DNA of 36,741 bases, taken from the IMG/VR virus record IMGVR_UViG_3300036806_000060, positions 1 to 36,741 of that record, one strand, 5' to 3'. The notes under the pieces were generated by a model, which was not told the DNA's origin, did not search any database, and saw only the letters and a program-made list of their open reading frames with translations. A program made the translations under genes and the position numbers. This document shows positions 3,400-24,225 of this stretch, one piece after another (within the stretch, counting starts at the first letter, position 1; every line of letters starts with the position of its first letter). This DNA comes from a virus.

Positions 3400-5685
3400 C
3401 TACCGAGTAAGCAGCGCCTTTTGTTTACGCGCCGCATCGCGCAACGCTTCCATCTTTTCCGGATCGAGACCAGCGAGCCGTTCTCCGGCTTTCACCGTAT
3501 CGGCGGCATTGTTGTTTCGATCGTAGTCCACCATCGACTGGCACGATGTCAGGCCAAGCCATAGATATTGATACAACTGTTCGGCCGATTTTTCTTCGAT
3601 CGGCAACGCCGCCGCGAGAATGCTTTTTCGATGCGCCGTCCTGGCGATGATATCAGCTTGATCCCGATCATCAAGTTGACGCAGCTCGGCGATGGTAGCC
3701 GGGAAGACTTCCCATGCCTGGATTTGAGCGATGGTTTCGAGCGACTCCAGGTCCGCCAGCATACCGTCCTTGGCATTCCGAGGCACCGGGTCGCGCGCCG
3801 GAGCCGGTGTTAGTGCCTTCATCCGCTCCTCGAAGACCGCCAGCGCGGCTAGCCTGCGAGCGGGTGGAAACGCGGCGATCGTGTCGGCGTTGGCATCCTT
3901 GATAGCACGGAAGCCATCCACGTTGACGTTGGTCAGCGCGGCTCTGAGGCGATCGTTGTAAGCGTTGTATTCCGCCATGGTCTTATGCGCGGGCGGTGGA
4001 ACGATCAACGACGGCGCTTCGACCGCTGGCTTGTTATAGCCGGCCAGAATCGCGGAGACCTTTGTGCTGGCGATTTGCGCTTTGCGGATAGCTTCAAGGT
4101 TGGCACGCTTGAACAAATCGACGGTCGCGGCGGGCTTGGAATGCAACGCATCCATATAGGCGGTGACGAAGGCGACGGGATCTGTAAAGGCCTCGATCTC
4201 GCCATTCTCATCGGGGATTTCGTTGCCTTCGCCGTCGATCAGCCAGGCTTCGAAGGACACCGGGCCGCTGGAAGATTCCACGCCTCCAGTGGCCGCCGCA
4301 CCGGCAACGGTCGTGGTCCCGTTATCGCCGGCCGCTGTCTCAGATTCGCGACCAAACAGAGGTTGCTCCTGTTGCCGCGGTTCCTGCGCCGGCTGTGCCG
4401 TGCCAGCGCCGCGCCGCGCCCGCCAGGTGCCATCGCTGTTCTTCGCCTTGCTGGAAGCGTGCAGTGCCGCATCCCAGGCCACGCCGTTCACGTCGCGCTC
4501 CATCTCGGGCTCGTCCTTCTGCCCGGCCAGTTCGCGCTTACGATCGATCGTCGCCCGCGCCTCGGCGCGCTGTTCGTCAGTGGGCTCCGGAGGCATTTGT
4601 TCATTGACGGGCACATCCTTGGGCGAAAGACGATCAACCGCATCGTCAAGCGCCTTCTGAATTCTTTGTCTGAATTCCAGCGGCGCCATTTCGCGAGCGG
4701 ACCGGACGCATCCCAACGAAAACAAGGCGGTCAGGTCTCCGATATTGGTTGCCGTGCCCGCGAATCCCAGCAACCGTTCCAGCCATGCCTCGGGTTCCGG
4801 CTCGTCATTAAGCGCGATATCCGCCTCGATCACGAATTGACCGCGATCGTCAGGCGGCGCCGAGAAATCCGATCGTGTCGGCTGTTTCGGCGACACGCCA
4901 GTATTTTCGAACGTCGGCGCCTCATCGAGCATCTGCCGCACGATATCGGAACGCATCCATTCCAACGCATCTCGGTAGTCGTCTGGGTCCTGAACATACC
5001 CAAGGGCCGTGAACACGACCTCTGGATATCGCACATCCATGTTGAATGACATCTGTGTCACGACCTGACTGATGTCGATGCCGGAGATGTTCAGTTCACC
5101 GCAATAGCGTGCCAGATTGGGCATGCTCATCACTGGCAGGCGCAGCATCATTGGCGCGCCGCCGAAGGACTTGTTTTTCACATCCCCGGCCGGCACGACG
5201 GCGATCTTGCGACCATCGCGGCATGCCTTGCCCTTACCTTCGGTGCCGTCGTCGGATATCGCCGATCCGAACTGGTTTTTTGGACAGGTCGCGCAACTCG
5301 TCGATTGAATGCGGGGCGACTTCTGATCTGGCCTTTCGCCATCCGTCGAGAAGCAATCCGGCATCAGGATTTTAACGCCGGGACGAAACGCGGCGGCATA
5401 CCATGACTTGCTGATCGCGGGAGAAATCCCGACCACGATGACATTGAGCGTTGGCGTCGGCACGGGAGGCAGCGGCTTGTGGTTCACATCGAACCCCGGA
5501 GACTGTCTGATCACGGTCTCCACACCGCGAGTGGTGACGGACCACACGCGGCCCTCGATACTGACCACGGGGAACGGGATGCGAATGCCCTGTTGCGCGT
5601 TGGCATTCAACGCCATGGGTGGCGGATTGTTGGCGATGTGAGCGGGCAGGTTCGCGCCGGGGGAAAATGTCACCATGTCGTTCAT
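3400..5685 (-). CDS. Large Cys-motif phage protein, possible ssDNA-binding
   Basis: At 761 residues this is the largest early gene. The N-terminal half has beta-rich segments (IRIPFPVVSIEGRVW, LNVIVVGISPAISKSWY) and a possible zinc motif: C111, then C131-x2-C134, then C155 in a GKGKACRDGRKIAV context. This layout resembles a family of large proteins in phage replication regions that I have seen suggested as single-strand DNA binders. I hold that loosely. A Gln/Pro-rich linker follows near residues 420-450 (AQPAQEPRQQEQPLFGRES). The C-terminal third is helical and polar. The neighbouring exonuclease gene supports a DNA-metabolism role. Confidence 0.75.
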   Translation of the reverse strand: MNDMVTFSPGANLPAHIANNPPPMALNANAQQGIRIPFPVVSIEGRVWSVTTRGVETVIRQSPGFDVNHKPLPPVPTPTLNVIVVGISPAISKSWYAAAFRPGVKILMPDCFSTDGERPDQKSPRIQSTSCATCPKNQFGSAISDDGTEGKGKACRDGRKIAVVPAGDVKNKSFGGAPMMLRLPVMSMPNLARYCGELNISGIDISQVVTQMSFNMDVRYPEVVFTALGYVQDPDDYRDALEWMRSDIVRQMLDEAPTFENTGVSPKQPTRSDFSAPPDDRGQFVIEADIALNDEPEPEAWLERLLGFAGTATNIGDLTALFSLGCVRSAREMAPLEFRQRIQKALDDAVDRLSPKDVPVNEQMPPEPTDEQRAEARATIDRKRELAGQKDEPEMERDVNGVAWDAALHASSKAKNSDGTWRARRGAGTAQPAQEPRQQEQPLFGRESETAAGDNGTTTVAGAAATGGVESSSGPVSFEAWLIDGEGNEIPDENGEIEAFTDPVAFVTAYMDALHSKPAATVDLFKRANLEAIRKAQIASTKVSAILAGYNKPAVEAPSLIVPPPAHKTMAEYNAYNDRLRAALTNVNVDGFRAIKDANADTIAAFPPARRLAALAVFEERMKALTPAPARDPVPRNAKDGMLADLESLETIAQIQAWEVFPATIAELRQLDDRDQADIIARTAHRKSILAAALPIEEKSAEQLYQYLWLGLTSCQSMVDYDRNNNAADTVKAGERLAGLDPEKMEALRDAARKQKALLTR

Positions 5686-7354: not shown

Positions 7355-7683
7355 CGCGACTTTCTCCGGTAGGCAATATGCGTATCGAGGTCAATTGTCC
7401 GCGTGGGATTGGCGGCGGGTTCGGATGGCGCGTAAATCTCAGCCCATCGTTTGTAACCGATGCGGAACCGGACTTCGCTTTCAGTGGCTTCGCGGGCATA
7501 GTGATGGATGCGTTCCATCATCGGTAGGAGCCATGGGTTAGTGGATGGTCCTTCCCAGACACCATCGATCATGCAGGACCATTGGCCATCCTCACACTTG
7601 ATCTGACAGCCAACCCATGGGCCTCCCCGCACCAGTCTAAGCATGTAGAAGCCAGGCGTGGGCGTGTCGGAAACGCGGGTCAT
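7351..7683 (-). CDS. Trp-rich small phage protein
   Basis: The 110-residue protein has a beta-rich N-terminal part ([20 protein letters not shown], then [16 protein letters not shown]), resembling a small barrel-like domain, and a helix [19 protein letters not shown]. The C-terminus is basic. Start and stop each overlap neighbours by ATGA. It resembles unnamed small proteins with T-P-G-x-Y/F near the start that are found in many phages. No function is assigned. Confidence 0.65.
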
Positions 7684-8231
7684 TCTGGTTTGATAAATCC
7701 GCGAATGATCGCCAACTTCTCAATGTAATCCAGAATGCACATTGTCTCGTCGCCAAGCTGTGTATTAGCGCGCGTCCGTATCCAATGCTCGCGACCTGTG
7801 ATGATATCGAAGTCACGGCATCCGGCATGGATCATCAACACATTTTCCCTGATCCATCCAACGAAATGATATCCGTCGGATCGGCTACCGCCGTCTATGA
7901 CGCCTCTAGCGCCGTCGAGGTTGGCGCCGTCGAGGTTGGCGCCGGCGAGGTAGGCGCCGGCGAGATTGGCGCGGGCGAGGTAGGCGCCGGCGAGGTAGGC
8001 GCCGTCGAGGTTGGCGCCGTCGAGGGTGGCGCCGGCGAGGTTGGCGCCGTCGAGGGTGGCGCCGGCGAGGTTGGCGCCGGCGAGGTAGGCGCGGGCGAGG
8101 GTGGCGCGGGCGAGGGTGGCGCCGGCGAGGTAGGCGCCGGCGAGATTGGCGCGGACGCCGGTGCTTTCATTGCGTAACCATTGCGCGTGTGCCTTCACGA
8201 TGGCAGGCAAATCTAATGATATCTCAGTCAT
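7680..8231 (-). CDS. Pentapeptide-repeat protein with C-terminal domain
   Basis: An AGGAG site precedes the ATG. Residues 1-27 are a helical lead ([20 protein letters not shown]). Residues 28-107 are 16 uninterrupted five-residue units of the form A-(N/Y/T)-L-(A/D)-(G/R). Such arrays fold as a right-handed quadrilateral beta-helix. In MfpA and Qnr proteins this fold mimics DNA and acts on gyrase, but many other pentapeptide proteins have unknown roles. The C-terminal 75 residues ([20 protein letters not shown], then [16 protein letters not shown]) form a separate alpha/beta domain, often paired with such arrays in phages. The array is unusually regular, with almost no variation from consensus. 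Confidence 0.9.
7911..8150 (-). repeat. Tandem 15-base repeats coding the pentapeptide array
   Basis: About 16 direct repeats of 15 bases follow each other without gaps. On the plus strand they read as alternating blocks such as GGCGCCGGCGAGGTA and GGCGCCGTCGAGGTT. Units differ at only one to three positions, giving N/Y/T, A/D and G/R choices in the protein. The near-identity at DNA level suggests recent expansion or homogenisation by slippage or unequal exchange. Long open frames in other phases here are by-products of the repeat. Confidence 0.95.
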
Positions 8232-9457: not shown

Positions 9458-9884
9458 AATCGTGCTCCCATTTGCCATCGAAAGCCTCAATAAGCGAGAC
9501 AGGCGCGAGCATTGGGGCCAGAGAACCAAGGCTAAGAACCGCCTCGCGCTCGAAGTCCTGGCGGCGATCGGCGGTCCCCGATATCTGCCAGCCGCACCGA
9601 TTGAGCGGGCGAGCGTGACGATTGTTCGGTATTCGTCTCGGCGCCTCGATCTCGATAATCTCTATGGGGGTGCGAAGGAAATCATTGATCTGTTGTGCGT
9701 CCATTCACGCTCAAAACCTCGTGGCATGGGCTATATACGAGATGATGACCCGGATCATTTGATGCTGGACATGGGACAGATCATCGTGCCGCGCGCGGAA
9801 GCGCGAACCGAGATCACGATCCGGGATGCGTCAATCGAACAATCCACGCCTCGGAACGCGAGCGGGGATAGCGCGGCGCTGTAG
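9450..9884 (+). CDS. rusA: RusA-type Holliday junction resolvase
   Basis: The 144-residue product carries the RusA core: IERASVTIVRYSSRRLDLDN with D67, D69 and N70, then KEIIDLL with D80, then GMGYIRDDDPDHL with D98-D100. In E. coli RusA, clustered Asp residues bind the metal used to cut four-way junctions symmetrically. The GTG start overlaps the stop of the upstream gene by 8 bases. A later in-frame GTG at 9465 is an alternative. The C-terminal codons overlap the 3' end of the minus-strand gene 9831-10112 by 54 bases. It probably resolves phage recombination or replication intermediates before packaging. Confidence 0.9.
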   Translation: MVKIVLPFAIESLNKRDRREHWGQRTKAKNRLALEVLAAIGGPRYLPAAPIERASVTIVRYSSRRLDLDNLYGGAKEIIDLLCVHSRSKPRGMGYIRDDDPDHLMLDMGQIIVPRAEARTEITIRDASIEQSTPRNASGDSAAL

Positions 9885-10112
9885 CTCGCCCCGGCACCAC
9901 GCCTTCCATTCCCGGTGCCAGTCGTCGCTGAAACGGCCGCGTTGTTCGGCGGCGAAGCGGTTGGCGGTGATGGCGTAGTCCGCCTCGGAAACCTTCGCCA
10001 TCATGAGATCGATGCGCCAGTGGACGCGGCCCGTCCAGCGAGCCGGCGACCAGAAGTCACTCGGCAGCGGCGCACCGATCGGCCTGGCGATGCGGACAGC
10101 GCGGCGAGCCAT
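9831..10112 (-). CDS. Hypothetical protein ending in GLFD
   Basis: The 93-residue product is basic at the N-terminus (MARRAVRIARPIGAPLPSDF) and helical later (VSEADYAITANRFAAEQRGR, DDWHREWKAWCRGELQRR). It ends PRRGLFD, a terminus shared with two other early proteins here. The ATG overlaps the upstream stop in TGATG. Its 3' end runs antisense into the rusA-like gene. Function unknown. Confidence 0.65.
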   Translation of the reverse strand: MARRAVRIARPIGAPLPSDFWSPARWTGRVHWRIDLMMAKVSEADYAITANRFAAEQRGRFSDDWHREWKAWCRGELQRRAIPARVPRRGLFD

Positions 10113-15109: not shown

Positions 15110-15331
15110 CTAATCGAAAAGGCCGGCCTTTTTCGGGACGGCGAAATCCTCCAGCTTCATCTCTTCGCGCGTCGCGGCGATGATGGCCAGCATGGTCTCC
15201 ATCCTCGGCTTGCCGCGTCCATTCATGATGCGTGACAGCGTGGCCGGCATGATGCCGGTGCGGATCGCGAAATGGTTCGCCGATTCGCCATTGTCGAAAA
15301 GCCAGCGCCGCAAGGGATGTCGTGTTGCCAT
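15110..15331 (-). CDS. Cro/C1-type HTH repressor
   Basis: The 73-residue product is a single XRE-family domain: FDNGESANHFAIRTGIMPAT as helices 2-3, LSRIMNGRGKPRMETMLAII as the rest. It ends KKAGLFD and is far shorter than lambda CI, with no oligomerisation or LexA-like cleavage domain, so Cro-like or small-repressor behaviour is likely. It faces left. No Shine-Dalgarno precedes its ATG. The candidate -10 (15338-15343) ends six bases before the start, which suggests a leaderless message. It probably sets the balance between leftward and rightward early transcription. Confidence 0.88.
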   Translation of the reverse strand: MATRHPLRRWLFDNGESANHFAIRTGIMPATLSRIMNGRGKPRMETMLAIIAATREEMKLEDFAVPKKAGLFD

Positions 15332-18247: not shown

Positions 18248-18895
18248 ATGGCCTATCACGCTAAACTCAGTGAAATCCGCTCTCCGATCCGCACCCCTCA
18301 AATCGTGGCTCGCATTCGATCGTTCATCGCCGAGAGGGGACCGGGGAATGCGGGTAACATCGTTATCGCGGATATGATTTGGCGGGAATTCAATATTCCG
18401 GTCACAGGAGGACAGGTTGCTGGATGTCTTACCCGCGAAGGAATATCGAGAGGCGGCGCCCGACCTGGAATACATCGCGTCGAGAGCAAGCCCCCAGGTC
18501 CGAAGCCCAAAGAGCGGCCAGCGGAAATAGCGCATCCCACGCCAGCGCCTCTACCGCCGCTGCCATCCCTGGCAAGCGATACGCCAATGATCGAACCAAC
18601 GAAAATACCGCCGCCGATCGCGGAAAAATACCGCGCCATGTCGCGGCAGGCCGAGTTGCTGAGAACCGTCAGGTCCGTGCAAGGGACCGTTATCACAGAG
18701 GCACCCTCGCCGTTTCGCCGCTCACGCCAATGTCTCTGGCCCATCGGGGAGCCGGGCACACGGGATTTCCGCTACTGTGACGCACCTCACAACGGCCCGA
18801 AGGACTATTGCCCGGAGCATCACGCCATGGCGTATCAGCGGCACGATCGACGACCGGACACCGCCCCGCCCGTTGATCAAGGAGGCTACATATGA
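18248..18895 (+). CDS. GcrA-family regulator, probable late-gene activator
   Basis: The 215-residue protein has an N-terminal winged-helix-like part (ADMIWREFNIPVTGGQVAGC, LTREGISRGGARPG at about 41-75), a long Pro-rich linker (about 80-125) and the GcrA C-terminal signature: QCLWPIGEPGTRDFRYCDAP with C162 and C177, then KDYCPEHHAMAYQ with C188 and H191. In Caulobacter, GcrA binds sigma-70 and methylated GANTC promoters. The N-terminal part differs from the usual W-T-x-E opening. An AAAGGGA site precedes ATG. It is the first gene upstream of the packaging and head genes, so late activation is a reasonable inference. Confidence 0.85.
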   Translation: MAYHAKLSEIRSPIRTPQIVARIRSFIAERGPGNAGNIVIADMIWREFNIPVTGGQVAGCLTREGISRGGARPGIHRVESKPPGPKPKERPAEIAHPTPAPLPPLPSLASDTPMIEPTKIPPPIAEKYRAMSRQAELLRTVRSVQGTVITEAPSPFRRSRQCLWPIGEPGTRDFRYCDAPHNGPKDYCPEHHAMAYQRHDRRPDTAPPVDQGGYI

Positions 18896-19362: not shown

Positions 19363-19770
19363 ATGACGAAACCTACTGGCAGACCACCGGGGCGACCTCG
19401 TAAGGATGGACAGGCGCCCAAGCCAGCGCCGCTCCGTTACATGGCCGCCGAGGAGATAGCTCGCCGCAAGGTCGAAGCCGGCGAAGCCGAGGCGCTGTTC
19501 GGCCTGACAGAGGCCGAGATACAGGCGCTTCTCCCCCGAGACATCCTGCGCTTGGCCGCGCACCATGCCGTGCGGGTGGGCGACCTCAAGCTCGCCCGCG
19601 AAATCGCCAAGGACTGGGCACCCTATGAGCATGCCCGGAAGTCTGAGACCGTCACCATCACACCGGAGGATCTGAAGCGTGTCGCTGACACTGCGCGACG
19701 TGAAGCGGCCCGACGCGGCCTCGATGTGGAGCTTGCCCGACTCCCTGTTGCTGGAGCTGTGCCGAATTGA
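19363..19770 (+). CDS. terS: Terminase small subunit, probable
   Basis: The 135-residue protein starts with an AT-hook-like GRPPGRPRKDGQAP segment. A helical core follows (MAAEEIARRKVEAGEAEALF, GLTEAEIQALLPRDILRLAA) and a basic C-terminal helix (LKRVADTARREAARRGLD). Small basic/helical proteins directly upstream of the large terminase usually recognise the packaging site. The ATG is the only good start, though its GGGAG is tight against it. It overlaps the large subunit by 92 bases. The call rests mostly on position and the AT-hook. Confidence 0.75.
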   Translation: MTKPTGRPPGRPRKDGQAPKPAPLRYMAAEEIARRKVEAGEAEALFGLTEAEIQALLPRDILRLAAHHAVRVGDLKLAREIAKDWAPYEHARKSETVTITPEDLKRVADTARREAARRGLDVELARLPVAGAVPN

Positions 19771-21259
19771 CGAAGAACTGGAGCCCTCGCTCGCGGCTCC
19801 CATCTATGACACACCAGCGGAAGCCGACGAGATCGCCGAACTCTGCCGCTCCGGCCTGATGGACTGGTGCTACGAGGCGCTGCGCCACGAGGGCATGGAG
19901 CCGGCCGCGCACCATCGCCTGTTGATCGATCATCTTCAGGCCGTGGCCGACGGCCAGATCAGCAAGCTCATGGTGTTCATGCCGCCTGGCAGCGCCAAGA
20001 GCAAATATGTCAGCGAACTGTTCCCCGCGTGGTTCATGGCGCATTGCCCTGGCGAGCCGATCATCGCCGCTTCGCACACCGCGCGTCTCGCCATTCGCTT
20101 CTCAGGCCGTGTGCAGCGATACGTCCGCGCTTTCCAGGCGGTGCTCGGCTACGGCCTGATGACCGAGGCCAAGGATCGTTGGGAAAACACGCATAACGCT
20201 GAATATCTGGCCGCGACCGTGGGAAGCTCGCTGCCGGGCTTTCGCGCCAAGGTCGCCATCGTCGATGATCCCTATAAAGGTCGTGAGGACGCCGACTCGG
20301 AAAATACCCGCGAATCGGTGTGGGAATGGTGGAACGGCGATCTATCGCCCCGCCTCAAGCCCGATGCCGGCCTGATCCTGATGCACACACGCTATCACGA
20401 AGACGATCAGGCCGCGCGCCTCCTGGCCGCTGAGCCGAACGAATGGACCGTGCTGAGCCTGCCGGCGGTGGCCGAGGACCCGGCCGCGAGCACGCCGGAG
20501 AACATCATTCTGCCCGATGCGCTTGGTCGCGCGCCGGGCGTGCCGATCTGGGCCGATGATCCGAAATATCCGTTCGGCGATCTCATGCTGAAAACCCGCG
20601 ATGCCTTGGCCCGGCGTGGCGCCACGCGGGAATGGCAATCACAATATCAGCAGCGACCACGGCCAACCGAAGGCGCCTTGTTCCATGTCTCGAACATCGC
20701 CGTGCTGGAAATCGCTCCAAACCTCCGTGGCGCGCATGTCGGGCGAGGATGGGATCTGGCCGCGACTCGCAAGATAGGAACGAACGATCCGGATTGGACT
20801 GTCGGCATCAAGCTGGCCCGCATGGCGAGCGGTCTCTATGTGGTGCTGGACGTGGAACGTTTTCGCGGCGGCCCGGACGAGGTCGATACCCGCATCAAGA
20901 ACGTCGCCGATCAAGATGGACCGATAAAGGTTGGCCTGCCACAAGATCCAGGCCAGGCCGGCAAGGCACAGGTGCTGGCCTTCACGCGCCTCCTGTCGGG
21001 CCATCGCATTGAATCGAGCGTGGAGACCGGTGACAAGGCCACGCGCGCCGCGCCGGCCATCAGCCAGGTCAACGGCGGGAACTTCGCGATCGTCGCCGCC
21101 CCATGGAACCGCGCCTTTCTCGACGAGTTGAGCGCGTTCCCCGCCGGCGTGAAGGATGATCAGGTCGATGCGCTGAGCCGGGCATTCTCGCTGGTTGGCC
21201 TTGGCGCCGGATCGCTTATAGTGACCAAAGAACTTCTGGCGGCGATGGCAACGCGATGA
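19679..21259 (+). CDS. terL: Terminase large subunit
   Basis: The 526-residue protein has an N-terminal ATPase with Walker A P-P-G-S-A-K-S at about 102-108, an acidic Walker B V-A-I-V-D-D-P at about 192-198, and a DPYKG continuation. The C-terminal nuclease part has the RNase H-like acids: GWDLAATRK (D359), LPQDPGQAG (D423) and KDDQVDALSRAF (D493-D497). It pumps DNA into proheads and cuts it. The GTG at 19679 has GGAGG nine bases upstream, which favours it over the later ATG despite the 92-base overlap with terS. Confidence 0.95.
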   Translation: MSLTLRDVKRPDAASMWSLPDSLLLELCRIDEELEPSLAAPIYDTPAEADEIAELCRSGLMDWCYEALRHEGMEPAAHHRLLIDHLQAVADGQISKLMVFMPPGSAKSKYVSELFPAWFMAHCPGEPIIAASHTARLAIRFSGRVQRYVRAFQAVLGYGLMTEAKDRWENTHNAEYLAATVGSSLPGFRAKVAIVDDPYKGREDADSENTRESVWEWWNGDLSPRLKPDAGLILMHTRYHEDDQAARLLAAEPNEWTVLSLPAVAEDPAASTPENIILPDALGRAPGVPIWADDPKYPFGDLMLKTRDALARRGATREWQSQYQQRPRPTEGALFHVSNIAVLEIAPNLRGAHVGRGWDLAATRKIGTNDPDWTVGIKLARMASGLYVVLDVERFRGGPDEVDTRIKNVADQDGPIKVGLPQDPGQAGKAQVLAFTRLLSGHRIESSVETGDKATRAAPAISQVNGGNFAIVAAPWNRAFLDELSAFPAGVKDDQVDALSRAFSLVGLGAGSLIVTKELLAAMATR

Positions 21260-22899
21260 AACTCTGGCCCTGGTCCCGACGCGCCGTCCCCCTCGCCATC
21301 CCATTGCCTCAACGCGCCCCGCTCACGCCGGAGCCGCTGAACTTCTCGCTCGCCGCCGAGGCGATGCGCGCTGATCCGCGTGGCAATCTCCCTCGCGGCT
21401 ACAAGGAACTGCCGCGCCACGAGAACCCGTTCCGAGGTCTGCCGAAGCCACCGCCCGGTGTGCGGCCCGAAGGCCATCCGGTCCCGATCGGCATGGCGAT
21501 GGACACCAGGAGCGCCGAACTCGCCGGCATGGCCACCGATGACGCTTTCGCCACTACGCCGGGATGGGGCGCATGGGCGCAGGGCGGACTATGGGGCGAA
21601 GGACTGTTCTTCCCCGGCTATGCTTACCTCGCCGAACTTCAGCAACGATCCGAATATCGCAACATCGTCGCGACCGTCGCCGAGGAGATGACGCGGAAAT
21701 GGATCAATCTCGTATCGACGGGCGATGACGACAAAGAACCCACGATCAAAAAGCTGGAAGCCGCGATGCAGCGGCACAGACTCAAGGCGAAGTTCCGCCG
21801 TGCCTCACAACTCGATGGCGCGATGGGCATGGCGTTCATCTATATGGACTTCGGATGCGCCGACAATCCCGAGGAACTGCGCTCATCGATCATGGATATC
21901 GAGGGCAATCTGCTTCCGGAGAAGATCACGCGAGGATCGCTGAAATACTTCCAGGTCGTCGATCCCACGTGGGTATCCCCGGTATTTTACAATTCGACCG
22001 ATCCTTTGAAACCGGATTATTTCATTCCCTCGCTTTGGTATATCATGGGCAAGCAGGTCCATGCCTCGCGTCTGCTGATCATCCGATCGCGCGAAGTGCC
22101 GGACATTCTCAAGGCGGCCTATAATTTCGGCGGTGTGTCGCTCGCGCAGATGAGCAAGCCATCGGTCGATAACTGGCTTCGCACGCGGCAATCCGTCTCC
22201 GACCTGTTGCACGCCTTCACGACATGGGTGCTCAAGACGAACATGCAGGCTTATGTGCAAAATACCTCCATGCTCATGCATCGGTTGTCGCTGTTCATCC
22301 TTGGCCGAGACAATAAGGGTCTGATGGTTGTGGACAAGGATACCGAGGAGTTGGACAACGTCTCAGCCCCGCTCGGCGGCCTTGATCATCTCCAGGCGCA
22401 GGCGCAGGAACAACAATTCGCGGTGTCGAAAGAGCCTCTGACCAAGGCGCTCGGCTATGTGCCGTCGGGGTTGAGCAATACCGACGAGGCCGGCATTCGG
22501 AACTGGTATGACCACGTTCACGCTGAGCAAGAGGCTGTCTATGACGATGCGCTTCGCATCGCGCTCCAGGTCATCCAGCTATCCGAACTCGGAACGATTG
22601 ACGAGGAAATCGATCACGAATTCGTGCCTCTCTGGGAGCTGGACGAAGCGGGCAAGGCGGCGATCGAGAAAACCAAGGCTGATACCGATGCCGTGTTGAT
22701 GCAGGATGGCGTGATCGATAATGATGAGGCCCGCACGCGCATCCGCAACGATCCGGCGAGCCCATATCATGGCCTGGAAGGCGATGCGCCTGATCCGCCG
22801 ATGATGCAGATGGGTGGCAATGAGGGCGATGATCCGACCGACAAGATTGATCGCGGTGGCGCGGAAGGATCGGAGGTCGCGGCTAACTCAGGAGTATAG
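21256..22899 (+). CDS. Portal protein, DUF1073-type
   Basis: The 547-residue protein shares the DUF1073 portal features: NPFRGLPKPPPGVRPEGHPV near the start, YRNIVATVAEEMTRKWINL, then a central GLMVVDKDTEELDNVSAPLG and KALGYVPSGLSNTDEAGIRN. The C-terminal tail is acidic and Gly-rich. DUF1073 proteins form the portal ring through which DNA enters. The ATG overlaps the terL stop (ATGA). Anti-defence Acb1 proteins have sometimes been filed under similar names, but this length and position fit a portal. Confidence 0.9.
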   Translation: MKLWPWSRRAVPLAIPLPQRAPLTPEPLNFSLAAEAMRADPRGNLPRGYKELPRHENPFRGLPKPPPGVRPEGHPVPIGMAMDTRSAELAGMATDDAFATTPGWGAWAQGGLWGEGLFFPGYAYLAELQQRSEYRNIVATVAEEMTRKWINLVSTGDDDKEPTIKKLEAAMQRHRLKAKFRRASQLDGAMGMAFIYMDFGCADNPEELRSSIMDIEGNLLPEKITRGSLKYFQVVDPTWVSPVFYNSTDPLKPDYFIPSLWYIMGKQVHASRLLIIRSREVPDILKAAYNFGGVSLAQMSKPSVDNWLRTRQSVSDLLHAFTTWVLKTNMQAYVQNTSMLMHRLSLFILGRDNKGLMVVDKDTEELDNVSAPLGGLDHLQAQAQEQQFAVSKEPLTKALGYVPSGLSNTDEAGIRNWYDHVHAEQEAVYDDALRIALQVIQLSELGTIDEEIDHEFVPLWELDEAGKAAIEKTKADTDAVLMQDGVIDNDEARTRIRNDPASPYHGLEGDAPDPPMMQMGGNEGDDPTDKIDRGGAEGSEVAANSGV

Positions 22900-22915
22900 A
22901 GGGTGCGGCGGGATA

Positions 22916-23149
22916 TCATTTCAACCCCTCGAAAAAGATATCGATATTTATGCCGAGACTATCTAATGACCATTCTATAATCGCATCTTCCAGCGACTGC
23001 ATTACCCAGTCATCGTGTCCCTCACGCTTATCAAGATTCGCATTGGCGCGCTCAAATACCGCGTCGTCATGTGAATACAACTCATCCTTGACCGGAGATC
23101 GATTTCTCTGATCAGAGAACGTCAGGCGGTAAAGATCAGCGGCTTTCAT
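22916..23149 (-). CDS. Small acidic partner of HTH gene
   Basis: The 77-residue product starts MKAADLYRLTFSDQRNRSPV and ends LDSLGINIDIFFEGLK. It is acidic, with DDAVFERANANLDKREGHDD and MQSLEDAIIEWSLDSL helices. GGGAG lies just upstream. Its start overlaps the HTH gene stop by 14 bases, forming a two-gene minus-strand cassette opposite to the late operon. It resembles no toxin or antitoxin that I know. The pair could be a regulator/effector cassette. Confidence 0.65.
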   Translation of the reverse strand: MKAADLYRLTFSDQRNRSPVKDELYSHDDAVFERANANLDKREGHDDWVMQSLEDAIIEWSLDSLGINIDIFFEGLK

Positions 23150-23372
23150 ACTTTTCTCCCATGACTTCGCGCAACTCGGTAATCGCATAACCGTCGGCAT
23201 CTTTGTTATCGGCATACCATCGGATCAACCGCAGGAGCCGCATCGTCGGTTCCGGCACCGCGCGACCGTTCATCCAATTGTCCGCCGCCTGCCGGGTCAC
23301 GCCGACAAGCCGGGCCAGTTGAGCGGTCGTGAGACCCATCCGGTCGCGTAAGGTGACGATTTCGTATGCCAT
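23136..23372 (-). CDS. XRE-type HTH regulator within late operon
   Basis: The 78-residue product has a clear HTH: LRDRMGLTTAQLARLVGVTR then QAADNWMNGRAVPEPTMRLL. The start MAYEIVTL at 23372 has no Shine-Dalgarno. A candidate -10 (TACATA) ends six bases before it, the same geometry as the repressor at 15331, so a leaderless message is likely. The longer frame to 23477 would overlap the next gene and is rejected. It lies next to a palindromic site and probably controls itself and perhaps the rightward gene that starts there. Confidence 0.8.
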   Translation of the reverse strand: MAYEIVTLRDRMGLTTAQLARLVGVTRQAADNWMNGRAVPEPTMRLLRLIRWYADNKDADGYAITELREVMGEKYESR

Positions 23373-23378
23373 GAGGTA

Positions 23379-23407
23379 TATGTAAATCCGATTGACAAAG
23401 GAAGCAA
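23379..23407 (-). promoter_or_regulatory. Promoter of HTH cassette, predicted leaderless
   Basis: On the minus strand, TTGCTT (23407-23402) and TACATA (23384-23379) stand 17 bases apart, with six bases to the ATG. The -35 overlaps the adjacent palindrome. Confidence 0.5.
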
Positions 23408-23418
23408 ACGGTTTGTCA
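23393..23418. promoter_or_regulatory. Nested palindromic operator
   Basis: TGACAAA (23393-23399) and TTTGTCA (23412-23418) form a perfect 7-base inverted repeat 12 bases apart. Nested within is CAAACGGTTTG (23405-23415). The site covers the -35 of the leftward HTH promoter and the ribosome site and start of the rightward gpF-like gene, so bound HTH protein could block both. Confidence 0.55.
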
Positions 23419-24225
23419 CGCAAGCCTCTCACCGCTCCCGATCGCCGCGCCATCCGTCTCGGCCCTGTCCGCCCCAATGCCGGCCTGACGGAGACCTATC
23501 AACGCAAGCTGGACCGGCTGATCCTGGCCATGAGCCGCGACGTGCTGCGCCGCGTCCGCGCGCAATGGCGGGTCAATCCGCCCGAAATGGCCACCGACGA
23601 AAGCTCGCCGGCCGCGCTGCGGGCTCTGTTCGCCCGCCTGGCCAGGGAATGGACGCGCCGATTCGATGACTTCGCTCAATCCGCCGGCCGCAAGTTTGGC
23701 GTCGATGCCGCCGCATCAGCCGATCGCGTCTTCGCCGCTCAGCTTCGCAAGGCTGGATTCACGGTCAAATTCACAATGACGCCGGCCGCCAACGAGATCA
23801 TGCAGGCCACGATCGGCGAACAGGTTGGGCTCATCAAATCCATCCCGGCTGAATATCTGGTCGATGTGCAGGGGGCCGTGATGCGCTCCGTCCAGGTCGG
23901 GCGCGACCTCGCCAGCCTCACGCAAGAGATCGAGGCGAAATACGGAATTGCCCACCGGCGGGCCGCGTTCATCGCCCGCGACCAGAACAATAAGGCCACC
24001 GCGAGCATTACCAAGGCCCGGCAACTCGAACTCGGCATCACCGAGGCCATCTGGCTTCACTCGGCGGGTGGCAAGGTGCCTCGTCCAACTCATGTTGCAA
24101 ATTCTGGTAGACGCTATAACATCGCCGAGGGTTGGCTTGATCCGGCGATCGATAGGCGGATCTGGCCGGGAACGGAGATCAACTGCCGATGTGTTTCGAA
24201 GGCGATAATTCCCGGTCTGGACTGA
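23413..24225 (+). CDS. Phage Mu gpF-like head morphogenesis protein
   Basis: The 270-residue protein has the Mu F-like C-terminal signature: AIWLHSAGGKVPRPTHVANS followed by GRRYNIAEGW and GTEINCRCVSKAIIPGLD. Upstream it is helical (IEAKYGIAHRRAAFIARDQN). Such proteins are minor head proteins placed after the portal gene. The TTG at 23413 has AAAGGA about ten bases upstream. Another TTG at 23392 would put the start inside the palindrome and lacks a site. The start choice remains uncertain. Confidence 0.85.
   Translation: MSRKPLTAPDRRAIRLGPVRPNAGLTETYQRKLDRLILAMSRDVLRRVRAQWRVNPPEMATDESSPAALRALFARLAREWTRRFDDFAQSAGRKFGVDAAASADRVFAAQLRKAGFTVKFTMTPAANEIMQATIGEQVGLIKSIPAEYLVDVQGAVMRSVQVGRDLASLTQEIEAKYGIAHRRAAFIARDQNNKATASITKARQLELGITEAIWLHSAGGKVPRPTHVANSGRRYNIAEGWLDPAIDRRIWPGTEINCRCVSKAIIPGLD

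Follow-up and report, generated by a model that had tools for sequence, protein, structure and literature searches.

A minus-strand HTH cassette in a phage head operon resembles an exchangeable accessory slot more than a one-off switch

Two small genes on the minus strand, one encoding an HTH protein and the other an acidic partner, lie among the plus-strand head genes of a virus record of 36,741 bases, referred to below as the window (Table 1). Rather than a switch peculiar to this phage, the HTH cassette seems to represent a slot in which accessory genes can be exchanged. On balance, we think it probable that it is a mobile, moron-like accessory unit, placed antisense at a hotspot between the portal and gpF genes, in which a constant, autoregulating HTH gene accompanies variable cargo and whose expression would interfere with transcription of the head genes. 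The data support an insertion, an antisense orientation, recurrence of the HTH gene with changing cargo, purifying selection and one footprint of transfer. Recurrence of the antisense HTH gene with changing cargo is the stronger finding, the single case in the window being modest; it would mark out a set site, in a clade of phages, at which small accessory genes enter the head operon in reverse orientation along with a conserved regulator.

Table 1. Features at and around the portal-gpF junction of the window
Feature	Position	Strand	Basis or remark
Terminase	19679-21259	+	
Portal, left flank	21256..22899	+	Pfam PF06381, E 1e-78; stop at 22899
GTGCGGCGG, probable stranded old gpF start	22903..22911	+	Compare GTG CGT AGG in L004/L005; AGGAG upstream
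Inserted cassette, borders approximate	22912..23412		Absent from L004-L007 and L106
Partner gene, 77 aa, acidic, pI 4.5	22916..23149	-	ORF, Shine-Dalgarno, overlap with HTH gene
HTH gene, 78 aa, Cro/C1 type	23136..23372	-	HTH_31 and HTH_3
Candidate HTH promoter, TTGCTT-17-TACATA	23379..23407	-	Direct reading; weak
Perfect inverted repeat TGACAAA-N12-TTTGTCA, inner CAAAC-G-GTTTG	23393..23418		Candidate operator
Likely present gpF start, AAGGAAG then TTG (23413)	23398..23415	+	Direct reading; inside repeat
gpF-like head morphogenesis gene, right flank	23413..24225 (ORF from 23392)	+	PF04233, E 1.1e-10; phrog_324, E 5e-74

An earlier note on this DNA had placed an HTH gene and an acidic partner on the opposite strand between the portal and gpF-like genes, and the two overlapping minus-strand ORFs were confirmed. 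The head genes on both flanks run on the plus strand and the cassette on the minus strand, a layout that is the same in three related phages described below (L105, L115 and L180). Using portal and gpF as probes, we measured 160 portal-gpF junctions, some of them from repeated records. The two genes were contiguous at 110, separated by 60-300 bp at 21, and separated by more than 300 bp at 29. In the nearest relatives that carry no insert (L004-L007 and L106, with portals 55-59% identical to that of the window), portal and gpF abut or overlap. Because these near relatives, and the 110 contiguous junctions, have the two genes side by side, the cassette is, on this comparison of gene order, an insertion that separates two otherwise neighbouring genes, as for a moron. 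The comparison of related phages for presence or absence of the cassette, which the earlier note had called for, thus gave a clean pattern.

The bases bordering the cassette may retain a trace of this insertion. In L004 and L005, gpF begins GTG CGT AGG CCC CTA ACC (VRRPLT), and the first three of these codons have a probable counterpart left of the cassette in the window, i.e., GTGCGGCGG. To the right of the cassette the gpF sequence picks up as TTG TCA CGC AAG CCT CTC ACC, and homology to other gpF proteins starts just past the likely TTG start at 23413. On the simplest reading, which draws on nine bases, the old gpF start would have been left behind and a new one supplied by the cassette. 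The closest gpF relatives (72% identical), L103 (4846-4990) and L104, have a 139-bp spacer free of ORFs between portal and gpF; this gap was considered as a relic of the cassette and discarded, as it has no similarity to it.

Three diverged phages carry an antisense gene of this HTH family at their portal-gpF junctions, i.e., L105 (portal 58% and gpF 60% identical to those of the window), L115 (48% and 51%) and L180 (51% and 52%). These were the strongest other members found in IMG/VR by an HTH profile scan, with weaker matches elsewhere. HTH genes of L183, L184 and L221-L223 were discarded as further cases, being located away from the portal-gpF junction, as were HTH matches in Acetobacterales genomes, where this junction was not seen at the 7 loci examined. 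The earlier note had proposed that the cassette is a moron; it holds good as an inserted cassette, the junction being contiguous in relatives, but not as a one-off, given its recurrence in these phages.

The genes that accompany the HTH gene differ from phage to phage. In L105 they encode two predicted membrane (TM) proteins and one helical protein, upstream of the HTH gene; in L115 there is one ORF; and in L180 a number of small ORFs lie upstream and another partner lies downstream, with an ATGA overlap. In all four carriers, the antisense ORFs extend from near the gpF start to about 17 bp or less from the portal stop. The antisense operon of L180 has one consensus promoter (TTGACT-18-TATGGT, 9/12), positioned on the gpF start.

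Other relatives carry different inserts at this junction. In L228 (3336-5600, minus strand), about eight small antisense ORFs are tiled so as to fill the portal-gpF gap; this cluster has no HTH gene of the cassette family, and one of its ORFs matches phrog_18004. L018 has one antisense gene there. Two inserts are in the sense orientation: L084, a Rhodopila MAG prophage or phage contig, has an HNH endonuclease gene (HNH_3; 9538-9993, plus strand), possibly a homing insertion, and L012 has a gene that by eye resembles a winged-helix (wHTH-like) regulator. From these varied inserts, we conclude that the portal-gpF junction is an accessory hotspot.

In a tree of gpF and portal, the HTH carriers fell into two subclades, interleaved with empty sites, a pattern that would fit an ancestral gene lost several times as well as it would fit transfer. 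A further clue came from L115, in which the complete gpF is preceded by a relic encoding 36 aa of the N-terminus of a gpF (4855-4965, plus strand). The DNA of the relic and of the zone upstream of it matched L180, at the start of gpF and the zone of the antisense promoter, with a score of 70, compared with a maximum of 26 in shuffles; none of 200 shuffles gave an equally good match, and the start of L115's own gpF was not matched. Such a relic is what would be left as the footprint of a cassette transferred by recombination together with the 5' end of the donor's gpF.

The protein common to all four carriers belongs to the Cro/C1-type HTH families (PF01381/PF13560). In a Pfam search with the 78-aa protein of the window, HTH_31 (E 2.7e-7, 31.2 bits) and HTH_3 (E 8e-6, 26.2 bits) both exceeded their curated cut-offs, of 27 and 23 respectively, and an AlphaFold2 (AF2) model showed five helices with a pLDDT of 80. 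Across the family, the core of the protein reads LTTxxLAxLVGVTxxxAxxW..G..xPEPxxRLL. Pairwise dN/dS ratios among the window, L105, L115 and L180 were 0.09-0.35 (rough values, as dS is high in most pairs), which indicates a selected gene under purifying selection. The protein is most likely a DNA-binding autoregulator. Weak PADLOC matches to RmrA and mad1 were confined to the HTH part.

The nearest solved sequences are those of HigA-2 antitoxins (profile E 2.5e-5), together with a 434 repressor derivative. The likeness to HigA-2 and other Cro/C1 regulators lies in the HTH core (PDB 5jaa and 9tv9; profile E about 1e-5), whereas the cassette HTH gene has no HigB-type toxin beside it and has other neighbours, and the match is confined to the HTH. 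The cassette might also be a type II toxin-antitoxin system that stabilises an integrated or plasmid-like phage, with the HTH protein as an antitoxin that regulates its own synthesis and the acidic 77-aa partner as the toxin, or with these roles exchanged. The HTH gene does come first of two small ORFs that overlap by 14 bp, and weak matches to MqsA- and HigA-type antitoxin models accompany the HigA-2 resemblance. However, no match to an antitoxin family reaches its curated cut-off or extends beyond the HTH, and the partner belongs to no toxin or antitoxin family in Pfam, NCBIfam, PHROGs or PADLOC. True toxin-antitoxin pairs travel together, whereas L105, L115 and L180 keep the HTH gene without the partner found in the window, and we consider a toxin-antitoxin system unlikely.

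The partner ORF overlaps the stop of the HTH gene and its start is preceded by a GGGAG Shine-Dalgarno sequence. Its GC content of 0.46, compared with 0.57-0.67 in most genes of the phage, gives it the composition unlike the phage core that marks morons, a trait of the partner only; that of the HTH gene is ordinary (0.59). We found no match to the partner in Pfam, PHROGs, NCBIfam or PADLOC, and no relatives among IMG/VR viral contigs, GTDB genomes, phages and plasmids, or in genomes sampled from the order (299) and the class (385). An AF2 model of the partner alone (pLDDT 60) was too poor for use. A LYxLTFxxQ motif common to the partner and a neighbour of the HTH gene in L105 was discarded, the BLASTP E value being 0.35. 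The partner would therefore be orphan cargo, with a coding status read from its ORF, Shine-Dalgarno sequence and overlap only.

Morons are accessory genes inserted between conserved phage genes. The cassette resembles them in lying between genes that abut in relatives, in its low-GC orphan cargo, and in the variation among inserts at the junction. It differs in having an HTH gene of its own, met again at this site in distant relatives, and in being antisense with no terminator found.

The candidate promoter of the HTH gene has TTGCTT at 23402-23407 and TACATA at 23379-23384, followed by 6 nt and then the HTH ATG (23372). If this promoter is used, the 6-nt gap implies a leaderless mRNA. A second small HTH gene (15110-15331, minus strand), which encodes 73 aa with a weak BcepMu gp16-like match and heads the minus-strand early genes, is preceded by TTGACG-17-TATGTA-6-ATG, with spacing equal to that of the cassette; both genes could yield leaderless mRNAs. 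The letters, the spacing and the geometry shared with the gene at 15331 were as the earlier note had given them, but the promoter itself proved weak, with three of six positions agreeing with the consensus in each hexamer and no call made by a promoter scan at its threshold.

The inverted repeat, within which lies CAAACGGTTTG (23393-23418), is perfect. As had been claimed, it spans the proposed -35 and the start of gpF, i.e., the Shine-Dalgarno sequence AAGGAAG (23398-23404) and the likely TTG (23413), but it does not cover both starts, since the ATG of the HTH gene lies outside it. The exact TGACAAA/TTTGTCA repeat was recovered in 0 of 100 shuffles. Perfect repeats with 7-bp arms and spacers of 0-20 bp number 83 in the window (about 0.14 per 60 bp), and because comparable repeats are this common, it is only a little surprising to meet one in a promoter. 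The promoter zones of L105, L115 and L180 contained no perfect repeat with arms of at least 6. Close to chance and without a counterpart in these zones, the repeat is possibly an operator, and the switch that the earlier note placed here is putative. It might instead act in the head mRNA, as an RNA element that influences gpF translation, with the Shine-Dalgarno sequence in the loop and the TTG in the stem; the repeat does bracket AAGGAAG and the TTG, and the isolated 38 nt fold into a 7-bp stem, but the fold energy was no better than that of shuffles (z about 0) and a 63-nt context favoured another fold, and we regard an RNA role as very improbable.

A promoter scan found no plus-strand promoter at the gpF start. 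The earlier suggestion that the cassette could silence one head gene therefore found no support, gpF being part of a long head operon. The arrangement also differs from a lambda-type switch, in which a divergent repressor/Cro pair shares operators: here there are one HTH gene and one candidate site, and neither a second regulator nor a plus-strand promoter was seen. What the cassette does display is antisense genes inside a co-directional operon, as in noncontiguous operons.

In the mechanism that we propose for a mobile accessory unit, the constant part would be the small Cro/C1-type HTH protein, which would bind its own promoter near the gpF start and keep the antisense transcript low, and the variable part would be the cargo, here one orphan acidic protein. 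No minus-strand terminator was found at the end of the cassette in the window, and none was clear in the antisense direction in any of the four carriers; the antisense transcript would thus enter the 3' end of portal, and late head transcription would cross the cassette in the opposite direction. Since the cassette opposes the head operon and has no evident terminator, antisense expression and late head transcription should interfere with each other, so that the cargo would be made mainly while the head genes are off. We infer the autoregulation, the timing, the interference and a cargo that serves the host or excludes phages. It is conceivable, although we are doubtful, that in this alphaproteobacterial clade the HTH protein and the promoter at the gpF start form a slot that makes expression of cargo and head genes mutually exclusive, in which case new cargo, such as defence or exclusion genes, would arrive already wired to be off during assembly.

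A phage precedent for opposed transcription is taiEcA of phi80, which lies antisense in the late operon and is lowered once late transcription is switched on (PMC11364771). The cassette resembles the phi80 taiEcA/atiEcA system in being small and antisense within a late operon, with a candidate promoter of its own and opposed by late transcription (PMC11364771). It differs in its location between portal and gpF, in encoding other proteins, including an HTH protein, and in having no known pair of immunity and counter-defence genes. In Staphylococcus aureus phage 80alpha, tha/ith similarly places an antisense phage gene within an operon, where it serves as a switch between lysogeny and lysis (PMC11087260), but it is the cI operon that is interrupted there and the head operon here, and we identified no HEPN or Ith homologue. 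Antisense placement couples phage-borne immunity to the life cycle in both phi80 tai and 80alpha tha (PMC11364771, PMC11087260).

The phi80 case also bears on the idea that the cassette is a regulator of the phage itself, in which the HTH protein and antisense transcription into portal would damp leaky head genes outside the late phase, as a noncontiguous-operon switch in part of the clade. In each of the four carriers the antisense operon occupies the space between the gpF start and the portal stop, transcription opposed to late genes alters expression in phi80 (PMC11364771), and the HTH gene is under purifying selection. However, most relatives have a closed junction and no cassette, and it must be dispensable for head assembly in the family; nor was there a conserved operator. 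Self-regulation of this kind therefore seems improbable.

A more specific form of the accessory-unit reading is that the cargo provides superinfection exclusion or defence, being expressed early or in a prophage and shut off by late transcription. The layout equals that of tha/ith and tai/ati (PMC11087260, PMC11364771), the cargo is a low-GC orphan, and that of L105 includes two predicted membrane proteins; against this, the partner matches no PADLOC family, no counter-defence gene was identified, and a temperate life is only putative. We regard this form as a distinct but minority possibility; for the role of the acidic partner, our favoured guess is nevertheless exclusion, or some other advantage to the cell, whether infected or lysogenic. 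With phi80 tai and 80alpha tha as precedents, antisense slots are good places to seek new exclusion or defence genes, and concrete candidates are the acidic orphan and the cargo genes of L105, L180 and L228.

A role in the prophage state, also raised in the earlier note, did not fare well: the records of the window, L105, L115 and L180, which are possibly fragments, yielded neither a tyrosine or serine recombinase nor an rve transposase. With no integrase identified in the phage, a temperate life would be putative, and lysogenic expression of the cassette may not apply. As to the host, the C-terminal part of a protein encoded at 18248-18895 (plus strand) matches the GcrA family of cell-cycle regulators, which indicates an alphaproteobacterium, and the clade with the portal-gpF hotspot probably infects Acetobacterales. 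Two minus-strand genes elsewhere in the window may be mentioned. One (3400-5685) encodes a large early protein, a 761-aa ORF for which Pfam gave no match at E 0.01; the other (7680-8231) encodes an early-region pentapeptide-repeat protein that is possibly a DNA mimic.
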